From NCBI GenBank assembly GCA_012729155.1, contig JAAYDS010000053.1, forward strand, positions 1 to 46,511: a stretch of DNA of 46,511 bases. Reading direction: 5' to 3'. Below, piece after piece: positions 16,941 through 21,713 of the stretch (its first letter is position 1; every line of letters starts with the position of its first letter). The notes below the pieces were generated by a model. The model did not search any database and was not told where the DNA came from. It worked only from the letters and a program-made list of their open reading frames with translations. Origin of the DNA: Chloroflexota bacterium. Its GTDB lineage: Bacteria > Chloroflexota > Anaerolineae > UBA1429. The translations under genes were made by a program, and so were the position numbers.

Positions 16941-18401
16941 CTACACCAGGCCAAACAGGCGCAGCGCCAGCAGGGCCACGCCCACACCGATGGTGCCGCC
17001 CGCGATGGTCTGTGGCACAGTGTGGGCCTCGCCGCGCACACGCGCCCAGGCCACCAGGGGGATGAGCAGTAGCACCGGGATGAGCGTAGGCCCCACCACG
17101 CCGGTGATCAGCGTGGCGCCCAACGCAATGCCAGAGACGTGCTGGCTCACCTTCCACCATACGGTGATGGCTGTGTTGATGAGCACCAGCACCAACGTGG
17201 CGCCAAAGGCCATCAGCAGATAGCGTGGCCCATCGAGCAGCGCCAGCACCAACACCGGCAGCAGCGACAGCCCCAGCGAGGAGGCTACCAGTCGCCACTG
17301 CAGTCGCTCGGTGCGCTCGGTGATGTGCCAGTCGCTAATGCGACCCTGGCGCAGTGCCCGCTTGAGCACCAGCAGCGCCAGGCCCACCACAGGCAGCGCC
17401 AGGCCTACTACCCAGGCCAGGCCATACCACCAGCCGTGCGGGTCTAGCAGGCCCAGTGCCAGCAAGATGACGATGCTCACATAGTGGGGCGCCAGAAAGC
17501 GCGAAATAAGGCGCGCAGCGCGCTGGTCCCATGGCAGCTCAGAGATCAGCGTGCCCAGCAAGATCAACACGCCGCCCATCAGCCCCAGCGGCGTCATCAC
17601 ATCGCCGGCCAGCAGCACGCCGAACAGGGCGGCAAAGACGGGCTCGGCGGTGAAAATCAGCGCGGTATGGGTGGGCGTGGTAAAGCGCTGCATGGCCGTC
17701 TGCACCAGGAACGCCACAGCTGTTGCCAGCACGCCCGTAAAGGCGGCAGCAAAGAGCGTATTGGCTTGTAGGGCCGGCCAGGGCAGGTCGACAAAGAGGC
17801 TAACGACACCGCTGAGCAGGGCCACGGTGAACACCTGGACGATGGTCAGCGCCAGATAGTCATGACGACTGCCCAGTGCGCCCACCGCCACAATGTGTAG
17901 CGCAAACGAGACGGCGCAGAGCAGCACCAACACATCGCCCTCTGAGATGCGCTGCAGCTCACCGGTCGTCTCGCCGCCGTTGGTGAGCGAGAGCAGCGCC
18001 AGCCCCACCACGGCCAGCGCCACGCCCACCAGGGCCGCGTATTTGGGGCGCTGTCGCAACAGCAGTGCCGAGAGCAACGGCACGATGGCCACAGATAGCC
18101 CTGTGATGAACCCCGCCTTGGAGGCGGTGGTATATTGTAGGCCCAACGTCTGAAAGGCATAGCCGGCCAGCAAGGCCAGGCCGATCAGCGCGCCAGCACC
18201 CCAGCCACGCCAGCCCAGCCGTCGTAACCGTTGCCAGCCAAAGGGCAAGAGCACCAGCGCGGCCAGGCCAAAGCGTAGCGCCAAAAACGCCCACACCGGA
18301 AAGGTCTCGGTGGCGCCCTTGACCATGACAAAGGTGCCACCCCACACCAGGGTGACGAGCAATAGACTGAGGTCTGCCCAGCGTTGCTGGCGCACGTTCA
18401 T
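16941..18401 (-). CDS. EamA/DMT transporter fused to a PAP2-like membrane domain
   Basis: A 486-residue membrane protein in two parts. Residues 1-290 are a DMT-superfamily (EamA) transporter with ten hydrophobic segments and two repeats: LLLVTLVWGGTFVMVKGA at the start and AAFTGVLATAVAFLVQTAMQRFTTPTHTALIF in the second half. Residues about 310-486 are another membrane module with the layout of the PAP2 lipid-phosphatase superfamily: ISDWHITERTERLQWRL, then KVSQHVSGIALG and VAWARVRGEAHTVPQTIAGG. Canonical phosphatase motifs are eroded, so activity is doubtful. ATG 18401 lies one base beyond the stop of the VWA gene, so it is probably translationally coupled. The fusion hints at export linked to a lipid or phosphorylated substrate, which is inference. 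Confidence 0.8.
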   Translation of the reverse strand: MNVRQQRWADLSLLLVTLVWGGTFVMVKGATETFPVWAFLALRFGLAALVLLPFGWQRLRRLGWRGWGAGALIGLALLAGYAFQTLGLQYTTASKAGFITGLSVAIVPLLSALLLRQRPKYAALVGVALAVVGLALLSLTNGGETTGELQRISEGDVLVLLCAVSFALHIVAVGALGSRHDYLALTIVQVFTVALLSGVVSLFVDLPWPALQANTLFAAAFTGVLATAVAFLVQTAMQRFTTPTHTALIFTAEPVFAALFGVLLAGDVMTPLGLMGGVLILLGTLISELPWDQRAARLISRFLAPHYVSIVILLALGLLDPHGWWYGLAWVVGLALPVVGLALLVLKRALRQGRISDWHITERTERLQWRLVASSLGLSLLPVLVLALLDGPRYLLMAFGATLVLVLINTAITVWWKVSQHVSGIALGATLITGVVGPTLIPVLLLIPLVAWARVRGEAHTVPQTIAGGTIGVGVALLALRLFGLV

Positions 18402-18402
18402 G

Positions 18403-19296
18403 CTAGCCCTTGAGCTCCTGTCGCACCATGTCATACAGGCTGTCGGCGCGCAGGTCGCGCAGCGTGTAGCAGGGGCCGCCCAGGGTGTCGGCCAACTCTT
18501 GCGCAAGCCCGCGGTCGAGCGATTCGTGCTCGGTGTTGATGACCACGCAATGGATCTGCTTTTCGGCAAACATGCGCGCCACCATCAGGCCTTCTTCGCG
18601 CGGGGGCATGCCCGTCAGCGAGACGTTACCGGCGCCATCGGTGAGCATGATCATCATCGGCACGATCTCGTTGTCTTGCAGCAGTTCGCGCTGGATCACC
18701 TCGAACGACATCACCAGCCCGGCCGAGAGCGGCGTCTTGCCGCCCACGGGGATGTCGCGCAGGGCTGACTTGGCCATCTCAACGCTGGATGTGGGCGGCA
18801 GCACCAGCGATGCTCGGTCGCGCTGGAAAGAGACCATGGCCACGCGGTCGCGTTTCTGGTAGGCGTCGACCAGCAGCGACATGATGGCGCCCTTGGTGGC
18901 CTCCATGCGTTCGGCGGCAGCCATCGACCAGCTCGCGTCTACCGCAAAGAGCACCAGATTTGAGGTCTTGCGCACGCGCACCTTGCGCTGAATGTCCTGA
19001 TCATGGATGGATATGGCCATGCCCTCATCCAGGCGTTCGCGCTGGTAGGGCGCGGCCTGGCGGGCGGTGGCATCGAGAGCGATATCCTCGTAGCGGCCGT
19101 TGGCGGGGCGAGCGTAGATGTAACGGCCCCGCTTGCGGGTGCTGACGGTGTAGCTACGTTTGCCCCCCGAGCGGCGCTGCTGGCGATCGTTCTGAGCGGC
19201 CAACTTGGCCGGCTTGAACATGGCCCCAATGTTGACGACGTTGCCCCCTGGCTGGGGCGTGTTGATGGCCTGTGCATCGGTGTGGGTGCCGCGCAT
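18403..19296 (-). CDS. VWA-domain part of a ChlD-like metal chelatase subunit
   Basis: The C-terminal half of a ChlD/BchD-type chelatase subunit. From the ATG at 19296 it has 297 residues: a basic linker (KLAAQNDRQQRRSGGKRSYT), then a von Willebrand A domain with a complete MIDAS (DASWS, D120-S124; T in KTPLSAG; D in LTDGAGN). No clear ribosome-binding site precedes 19296, and the same frame is open upstream to 19413, overlapping the end of the ChlI-like gene across a run of nine A residues (19358-19350). A -1 slip there would join both parts into a 676-residue ChlD. I therefore read this as the shifted half of one chlD gene, although separate initiation at 19296 is also possible. Confidence 0.82.
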   Translation of the reverse strand: MRGTHTDAQAINTPQPGGNVVNIGAMFKPAKLAAQNDRQQRRSGGKRSYTVSTRKRGRYIYARPANGRYEDIALDATARQAAPYQRERLDEGMAISIHDQDIQRKVRVRKTSNLVLFAVDASWSMAAAERMEATKGAIMSLLVDAYQKRDRVAMVSFQRDRASLVLPPTSSVEMAKSALRDIPVGGKTPLSAGLVMSFEVIQRELLQDNEIVPMMIMLTDGAGNVSLTGMPPREEGLMVARMFAEKQIHCVVINTEHESLDRGLAQELADTLGGPCYTLRDLRADSLYDMVRQELKG

Positions 19297-19337
19297 GGGC
19301 GTGCCCTGCCCGGGGGCGGGCTCTTGGTCAGGCGAGG

Positions 19338-20432
19338 TCAGCGGGTCAGTTTTTTTTTGGTCTGCGCGCCGGGTTGACCGGCTTGCTGAGGGTCCGGCTC
19401 GCCCACCTCGCAACGGGCCTGTTCGAGCCGTTGAGCCAGCTTTTCGAGCTTGGCCTCGGTGTCTTCAAAGGGTTTGCGGCGCAGGCGATGGGGCAAGGCC
19501 AGCTCGGCTGCCAGCAGAATGTCGGTGTCGCAGATGCTCGCGCGCCCTTCAAAGGCAGCGTGGGCCAGAGCCGTCTTGAGGATGACGATATCGGCGCGGT
19601 GGCCGTCTACGTCCATTTCGCTGGTGAGCTGGGCGATCGTGTATAGATCGCGCGGCTCGTAGGTCACCTTGGGCAAAAGCTCGCGGGCCTCGGCGATGCG
19701 CTCTGACAGCATGCCTTCGGCGCCATGCCACTGGTCGGCAAAGGTGTCAGAGTCGGCCTCGTACTCGACGCGGCGGCGCAAGATCTCGACGCGGGCGTCG
19801 GGGTCGGCGATGCCGGTGATATCGACGCAGAGCGCAAAGCGGTCGAGCAGTTGCGGCCGCAGCTCGCCTTCTTCGGGGTTCATGGTGCCCACCAGGATGA
19901 ACCGTGCCGGATGCGAAAAGCTGATGCCCTCGCGCTCGACGACGTTGACGCCCATGGCGGCCGAATCGAGCAGCAGGTCGACCACATGGTCGTCCAGCAG
20001 GTTGACCTCGTCTACGTACAACACGCCGCGGTTGGCGGCGGCCAGCACGCCTGGCTCAAAGCGGCGCTCACCCAGCTTGATGGCCTTTTCGATATCGAGG
20101 GTGCCCACCACGCGGTCCTCGGTGGCACTAACGGGCAGGTCGACAAAGCGAGTGCGATGGTGCGCCACGGGGAGCGCCTCTCCAGCAGAAACCCGATCGC
20201 GACAGCTATCGCACATCAGCTCGGGCAGGCGTGGATCGCACTGGAAGGGGCAGTCGGCGACGATGTCGATCTCAGGCAGCAGGGCGGCGAGGGCGCGCAC
20301 GGCGGTCGACTTGGCGGTGCCACGCTCGCCGCGGATGAGTACGCCGCCGATGAGTGGGCTGATGGCGTTAAGCACCAGGGCCCGCTTCATGCGCTCTTGT
20401 CCGACGATGGCGGTAAAGGGAAAGATGTGCAT
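19338..20432 (-). CDS. ChlI-like AAA+ chelatase subunit / N-terminal half of ChlD
   Basis: A 364-residue AAA+ ATPase of the magnesium/cobalt chelatase I family, the motor that inserts metal into a tetrapyrrole with the large H/CobN subunit. Walker [10 protein letters not shown] (35-43), Walker [12 protein letters not shown] (D141, E142), the [26 protein letters not shown] segment, and a four-cysteine insert (C61, C65, C74, C77) typical of ChlI/ChlD of methanogens and CobN-associated systems. It ends in TKKKLTR directly at the A9 run. ATG 20432 is chosen over GTG 20435; GGGAG lies 9 bases upstream. No cobN or bchH is in the window. A cobalt chelatase role would suit the corrinoid protein nearby, but this is inference. 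Confidence 0.88.
19350..19358 (-). promoter_or_regulatory. A9 slippery site for -1 frameshifting between chlI-like and VWA frames
   Basis: On the minus strand ACC-AAA-AAA-AAA-CTG is read in the ChlI frame, which stops three codons later at TGA (19340-19338). Slipping back one base gives AAA-ACT-GAC and enters the open VWA frame. A short GCCCG/CGGGC hairpin lies about 30 bases downstream. A9 runs are also classic sites of RNA polymerase slippage. Confidence 0.65.
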
Positions 20433-20577: not shown

Positions 20578-21151
20578 AGAGGCGTGCGGTCTCGCGCAAC
20601 GCCTCCCAGCGCTCGCGGAGGTCGGCGGTGAGATCGTCGAGCTGGCTCTGTCGAGACATCAACCCCAGGCTGACGCCCACACCCGCCAGAGTAAAGAACA
20701 GACCAAACCAGATGGCCCAGAACAGGTCTCGCCCGGCGGCGCCGAGAGGCTGGCGCAGGCTGGCCATGATGGGCATGGTGGCCGGCGGCAGCGTCAGTGC
20801 GGCGGGCGCACTCTCGGGCAGCTTGAGGCCGACCAGGTTGGCCGCCAGAACGGTGCCAATGGTGATGGTGATAGCCAAGGCTGGCACCCATACCGTCCAC
20901 GGCAGCCATTGCCAGCCCGGCTCGGTGGGGTAGCGAGCGATGCGCGCCATCACCGGCGCCACCAGATCATGCGGCAGGGGGGCCAGCGGCCAGGCGCGCA
21001 ACACCGTCTCGGCGCGGCGCAGGCGCGCCAGCTCGGCACGACAACTCGGGCATTGCGCCAGGTGCTGTTGCAGCGCGAGGTCGCTGATGCTGTCGGTTGT
21101 GGCATTGGCCAGCTCGGCGATGCGGTCGTGATAGGTTCGACAGTTACTCAT
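20576..21151 (-). CDS. Zinc-finger anti-sigma factor, membrane-anchored
   Basis: A 191-residue anti-sigma factor. The N-terminal ZAS-type domain has HLAQCPSC (the HxxxCxxC zinc motif, about residues 29-36) after helix-forming SDLALQQ. A transmembrane segment (WVPALAITITIGTVLAANL, about 87-106) and a second (FWAIWFGLFFTLAGVGVSLG, about 144-163) anchor it, leaving a short intervening loop outside. It would sequester the ECF sigma factor encoded just upstream until an envelope signal releases it. ATG 21151 overlaps the sigma gene end by 8 bases; the longer frame to 21187 would overlap more and lacks a ribosome-binding site. Confidence 0.85.
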   Translation of the reverse strand: MSNCRTYHDRIAELANATTDSISDLALQQHLAQCPSCRAELARLRRAETVLRAWPLAPLPHDLVAPVMARIARYPTEPGWQWLPWTVWVPALAITITIGTVLAANLVGLKLPESAPAALTLPPATMPIMASLRQPLGAAGRDLFWAIWFGLFFTLAGVGVSLGLMSRQSQLDDLTADLRERWEALRETARL

Positions 21152-21713
21152 GCGGTTCGTCCCTTTCAAGCAGGCGGGCCAGTGCACGGCGGGCGCGGCT
21201 AAGTTGCGCTTTGACAGTGCCCAGAGGCAGCGTCAGGCTTGCGGCAATATCGTCATAGCTTAGCTGTGCCTGGTAGAACAGCGTCAGCACGGTGCGATAG
21301 CGCTCGGGCAGCTCGCCCACGGCGCTCCAGAGCTCGCGGCGCGTTTGCCGCTCGATGACACTCGACTCGGGCTGCAGCTGGCCGTCGGCCGCCAGCGCCA
21401 GGTGATCGTCTCCCAGTTCGACGCTGCGGCCGAGCTGCCGGCGACGGTTGAGACAGGTGTTGGTGACGATACGATAGAGCCAGGTGCTAAAGCGGCTGTC
21501 GCCGCGAAAGTTCGGCAGAGCCCGCCAGGCGCGCACGTAGGCCACCTGCGCCAGGTCTTCAGCCTCTTGCGGGTTGCGCAAGATCTGATAGGCGAGGTTA
21601 TAGACCTGTGTCTGTGTATGGCGTACGATCTCGCCAAAGGCATCGTGGTCGCCGTCGCGCGCTCGCGCCACCCAGACATCGAGGGGGTCTTGCACCACCG
21701 TGCCCCGTTGCAC
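21144..21713 (-). CDS. ECF RNA polymerase sigma factor (RpoE-like)
   Basis: A 189-residue group IV sigma factor. Region 2 (about 25-95) shows the ILRNPQEAEDLAQVAYVRAWRALPNFRGDSRFSTWLYRI pattern, which binds core polymerase and the -10; region 4 (about 125-180) shows ELPERYRTVLTLFY then LSYDDIAASLTLPLGTVKAQLSRARRAL, a helix-turn-helix that reads the -35. It is cotranscribed with the membrane anti-sigma factor downstream and a small membrane protein upstream. The start is uncertain: GTG 21713 lies 5 bases after the upstream gene with no clear ribosome-binding site; GTG 21698 or 21695 are alternatives. Confidence 0.92.
   Translation of the reverse strand: MQRGTVVQDPLDVWVARARDGDHDAFGEIVRHTQTQVYNLAYQILRNPQEAEDLAQVAYVRAWRALPNFRGDSRFSTWLYRIVTNTCLNRRRQLGRSVELGDDHLALAADGQLQPESSVIERQTRRELWSAVGELPERYRTVLTLFYQAQLSYDDIAASLTLPLGTVKAQLSRARRALARLLERDEPHE

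Follow-up and report, generated by a model that had tools for sequence, protein, structure and literature searches.

A probable programmed −1 frameshift in a chlD-type gene and the retention of its slip site across one bacterial class

Known systems and the gene in the window

In the BchI/BchD, ChlI/ChlD, and CobS/CobT systems, a small AAA+ subunit is paired with an AAA+-VWA subunit, the two being encoded by separate genes and having a large-subunit partner. In genes of the fs-chlD family, a ChlI-like N-terminal half and a VWA C-terminal half stand in a −1 relation and are accompanied by an A_AAA_AAR slip site. Frameshifting in this family has been published for genomes that include Herpetosiphon (Antonov 2013, PMC3711429) and for Anaerolineaceae and Brevefilum (Kuznetsov 2022, PMC9227772), and members from Chloroflexi, some of them without a large subunit, are already known. 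These two papers bear out the original prediction that programmed frameshifting of chlD-type genes had been described in other prokaryotes, and they remove its suggestion that a Chloroflexota case would be new. Proteins of two lengths are also obtained from one gene, by slipping on A's, in the dnaX genes of Escherichia coli (tau/gamma) and Thermus (A9). The dnaX protein, however, is unrelated, and a slip in the gene described here would give the long product and not the short one.

The gene that we describe has the split frames and the slip site of the fs-chlD family and differs from the published members in coming from another organism. It confirms a known case of recoding and extends it greatly, since the case proves to be near-universal in one bacterial class. 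The fresh points are a class-wide census, a codon-phase rule for the slip site, the absence of the large subunit as checked with a positive control, and a reversed arrangement in fused relatives. The census, the phase rule, and the reversed arrangement were not found in the fs-chlD papers of 2013 and 2022 cited above.

The gene lies on the minus strand of the window, by which we mean the whole 46.5-kb stretch of DNA that was analyzed (65% GC), and the A9 run at its slip site is the only run of seven or more A or T in that stretch. Its 0-frame ORF starts at ATG 20432 and closes with ACC AAA AAA AAA CTG ACC CGC TGA. The VWA frame is open across A9 in the −1 frame and has its stop at 18405-18403; a slip product would comprise 361 + 315 = 676 amino acids. 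When the sequence was re-read, the frames, the coordinates, the A9 run, and the lengths of the unslipped (364 amino acids) and slipped (676 amino acids) products were all as originally predicted (Table 1).

Table 1. Features of the chlD-type gene, in window coordinates
Feature	Positions	Strand	Support
ChlI-like AAA+ ATPase, 0-frame ORF (364-aa short product) with Walker motif	19338..20432	−	Matches ChlI/BchI structures 8osf, 6l8d, 1g8p
A9 slip site AAA-AAA-AAA, containing the in-frame heptamer A_AAA_AAA	19350..19358	−	Kept in 116/117 split homologues
0-frame TGA, three codons past the slip site	19338..19340	−	Sequence; stop distance across 116 split genes
−1 frame reached via slip: linker and VWA domain with MIDAS DASWS, 315 aa added to 361	18403..19350	−	
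AGGG resembling a weak Shine-Dalgarno motif, with a 7-nt spacer to ATG 19296, the first in the VWA frame; not likely to be used	19304..19307	−	

An ORF for an EamA-type transporter on the same strand has an ATG at 18401, one base past the VWA stop (TAG C ATG), and, given this spacing, the two may be translationally coupled. Just upstream of the chlD-type gene, at 20579-21713 of the minus strand, are an ECF-type sigma factor and then a zinc-finger anti-sigma-like protein. Neither this pair nor the EamA gene is common to the named relatives.

The joined 676-amino-acid protein matches TIGR02442, the putative cobaltochelatase family of ChlD-type proteins with an intact AAA+ domain, end to end and in a single stretch (4-658), with a score of 792.3 against the curated cutoff of 779.45, whereas the separate halves score 512.5 and 272, both below the cutoff. 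The N-terminal half corresponds to the first 345 positions of TIGR02442 and also matches TIGR02030 (ChlI/BchI) at 446 bits; the C-terminal half corresponds to positions 353-640 and matches the solved VWA chain of BchD (2x31). Across the homologous loci, Walker A is present in 149 of 154 and the MIDAS motif DxSxS in 153 of 154. Conservation gives strong support to the predicted −1 frameshift that would join both frames as one full-length ChlD-type protein, and the TIGR02442 cutoff is passed by the joined form only.

We consider it highly likely that the gene is an fs-chlD gene, in which a −1 slip at A_AAA_AAA gives subunits of 364 and 676 amino acids from one mRNA. Ribosomes would translate the ChlI-like AAA+ ATPase as far as A_AAA_AAA, where a fraction would slip back by one base, avoid the stop that lies three codons farther along, and read the linker and the VWA (MIDAS) domain to the end of the long subunit, while unslipped ribosomes would end at the TGA and release the short one. 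By analogy with ChlI and ChlD, the short and long proteins would form a mixed AAA+ ring, and the complex, without a large subunit, probably works as a MoxR-like remodeling machine. The programmed frameshift is very probably real and working. What the analysis shows is the anatomy of the sequence, its conservation, the phase rule, and the absence of separate starts among relatives; the occurrence of slipping in this organism, its efficiency, and the mixed ring are inferred from these. In E. coli reporters of the fs-chlD family built on genes of other species, slipping amounted to 10% with 7 A, 40% with 9 A, and 63% with 11 A (PMC3711429).

Conservation of the slip site and the probable mechanism of slippage

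The VWA part was found in 344 of the 396 genomes of the class and in 225 of the 234 good ones. The comparison set consisted of 144 distinct loci (80 of them named, and nearly all of these from Anaerolineae or other Chloroflexi), to which ten fused loci were added later, raising the number of fused loci from 25 to 35 and the total to 154. The sequences are related, and counts of loci are not counts of independent events. Among the 144 loci, 117 are split in a −1 relation, 25 are fused, and 2 are split in a +1 relation. All but one of the −1-split genes (116/117) have an in-frame A_AAA_AAR at the corresponding place, with runs of A7 (n = 7), A8 (n = 9), A9 (n = 88), or A10 (n = 12), and 59 of the 60 split clusters formed at 82% identity retain the heptamer. 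Across the 253 kb of AAA+ and VWA domain sequence in these genes, A-runs do not go beyond 7. In addition, the 0-frame stop of the split genes is located a median of 9 nt past the run, a shorter distance than would be predicted if the long-product frame were recoded synonymously (Fisher P = 6e−12 over 116 split genes, a value inflated by relatedness). The recurrence of the −1 relation together with an A7-A10 run is far beyond chance, and the comparison of homologues, a check that the original prediction proposed, shows that both are conserved.

A few loci depart from this pattern. The one −1-split gene without an A-run, L016, is possibly broken or misassembled; its close relatives (L062 and L137) are fused and likewise have no run. 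The two +1-split genes are L075, with an A9 run that has possibly been miscounted, and L052, which is divergent and has no run. Outside the class, L214 is +1-split without a run.

Because A7 and A8 runs keep the codon phase that permits slipping, which polymerase slippage need not respect, −1 ribosomal slippage is the favored mechanism. All 14 A7 runs in the class, from split and fused genes, and all 3 in another Chloroflexota family are in codon phase 1, the sole phase in which A7 can hold A_AAA_AAA for a tandem −1 slip; the A7 runs span about seven to eight lineages (P of about 1e−4 if the phase were free). The nine A8 runs of split genes all fit a tandem slip, and in the single fused gene with A8 (L059) a G follows the run, giving A_AAA_AAG. 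Runs of nine or more contain A_AAA_AAA whatever the phase and are uninformative on mechanism.

Slippage of RNA polymerase on A9, by which A's would be added or dropped and part of the mRNAs would encode the fused protein with no ribosomal slip, is in our judgment improbable. It would agree with A9 being the commonest run, with the sufficiency of A9 for such slippage in Thermus dnaX (PMC5009743), and with both off-frames being closed soon past the run. However, runs of 7 A are short for polymerase slippage, all A7 and all split A8 runs are in the phase required for tandem tRNA slippage, and fused genes have a −1 stop closer than expected (P = 0.004) without a significant shift of the +1 stop (P = 0.09). 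On these patterns we prefer slippage by the ribosome, to which polymerase slippage may contribute at A9, where the two may be additive. No clear stimulator emerged: the fold downstream of the slip site is ordinary in the window (z = −0.26), and 64 representatives show no excess of downstream structure (mean z of −0.68 versus −0.51 inside the first domain, P = 0.43). No concentration of a Shine-Dalgarno-like motif was found upstream of the slip site among the homologues.

The VWA protein could instead be the product of a second gene, translated by coupling from its own codon, either ATG 19296 or TTG 19413 upstream. The VWA frame of the window is open upstream of the run, and the weak AGGG at 19307-19304, with its 7-nt spacer, slightly qualifies the otherwise fair statement in the original prediction that ATG 19296 lacks an obvious ribosome-binding site. 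The window's own ATG 19296 alone would not decide the question; it is the relatives that make a separate start very unlikely. In 35 of 116 split genes, the VWA frame contains no ATG, GTG, or TTG from the run to the domain; 31 of 116 have a VWA-frame stop at or inside the run; and Shine-Dalgarno-like motifs are found before 10.5% of candidate starts versus a background of 20%. Such motifs accompany 86 of 128 starts (67%) of the first ORF. Moreover, the fused homologues are one protein, and under separate starts the −1 relation and the A7-A10 run of 116 of the 117 split genes would be needless. Homologues without an A-run and with well-placed starts of their own, the pattern named in the original prediction as contrary to it, are not what the comparison returned, the run being nearly constant and the candidate starts depleted in Shine-Dalgarno-like motifs.

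Least probable of all is an assembly error or a pseudogene, with a run that is really A10 in one continuous gene, as the original prediction had considered: homopolymers are error-prone and a fused copy with A10 occurs alongside a split copy with A9 in one genus (g14), but as a general explanation it is refuted by the homologues, since all 11 scored same-family genes, among them the window's, show the −1 split, split genes number 117 versus 25 fused among the first 144 loci, and conservation extends to the domains, Walker A, MIDAS, and the placement of the stop. The two copies from that genus, L022 (genome G015, A10 fused) and L024 (genome G053, A9 split), differ by one A, with flanks that otherwise match closely.

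Proposed function without a large subunit

The genome to which the window belongs is 99.5% complete, and CobN/ChlH (PF02514) is absent from it and from its 14 family members; looking for cobN elsewhere in the genome, as the original prediction proposed, thus returned none. A failure of the search does not explain this absence, because PF02514 was recovered in the same way from 9 of 10 genomes of other classes. Four of 60 relatives have a clear PF02514, and three of these four also have a second, divergent chlD-type gene alongside. For a corrin pathway, the window genome offers two TP_methylase proteins only, which are too few, and it holds no other close ChlI. The cobalt-chelatase assignment made in the original prediction is not supported by this gene content, and the function in the name of TIGR02442 does not follow from the match to that family. 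A search of the 80 named loci for a conserved gene partner found none that would hint at a substrate; the next commonest neighbor cluster is present in 18 of them and resembles ribosomal protein S1.

Because the genome has no large subunit, we suggest that the pair is probably a stand-alone AAA+/VWA (MoxR-like) remodeling machine and not a cobalt or magnesium chelatase, which is the least certain step of our reading. Genes of the fs-chlD family without a large subunit have been reported in Brevefilum and Spirochaeta, with their function left open (Kuznetsov et al. 2022, PMC9227772). Given that the VWA part is near-universal in the class and the large subunit nearly absent, the conserved pair would have to act outside the usual three-subunit metal insertion.

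Slip sites in fused relatives

The tree of the 144 loci implies about 15 changes between fused and split forms, at least 9 of which are forced by well-supported branches. Among the fused genes of the class, 28 of 35 keep the in-frame heptamer, followed within 0-29 nt by a −1 stop. Counted as clusters, 15 of 19 carry the heptamer versus 2.3 expected when each gene is recoded synonymously according to its own codon usage, and the frequency of the heptamer in the rest of these genes would predict 0.3 across all 35 linkers. The −1 stop behind the heptamer is at a median of 14 nt versus 74 nt expected, the difference for which significance was given above; the corresponding value for the +1 stop is not significant. 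Four fused genes from a single family have the run as [GA]TA AAA AAA AAT GA, in which a −1 slip would bring TGA immediately into frame. The linker does not itself create the heptamer, because 27 of 31 fused genes from outside the class lack it. The remaining four (L185, L189, L191, and L193) all belong to family f71, of which four of four sampled genes have A8-A10, with a −1 stop following after 2-14 nt.

In the heptamer-bearing fused genes, normal reading would yield the long protein and a slip the short one. These genes share with E. coli dnaX the layout in which a slip leads to an early stop, and for dnaX both slip orders have been described (PMC5009743). For chlD, no description of the reversed order was found in the literature within the scope given above; Chloroflexus aggregans has been cited as a natural fusion (PMC3711429). 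We lean toward the view that selection keeps the slip site and not the written frame, that most of the fused genes are a reversed dnaX-like program, and that the pair serves a function without a large subunit throughout the class. If true, the reversed arrangement would offer a natural experiment on the needed ratio of short to long protein.

Some fused lineages (e.g., L013, L043/L046, and L062/L137) lost the site and gained no separate close chlI, which speaks against both products being strictly required. A separate chlI that replaces the short subunit after loss of the slip site was considered and not seen, genomes G031, G072, G022, and G057 having a single ChlI-like gene. A second ChlI-like gene, about 40% identical and encoding 350-450 amino acids, is present in G016, G019, G020, G024, G025, G026, G027, G033, and others, where it accompanies split and fused chlD alike.
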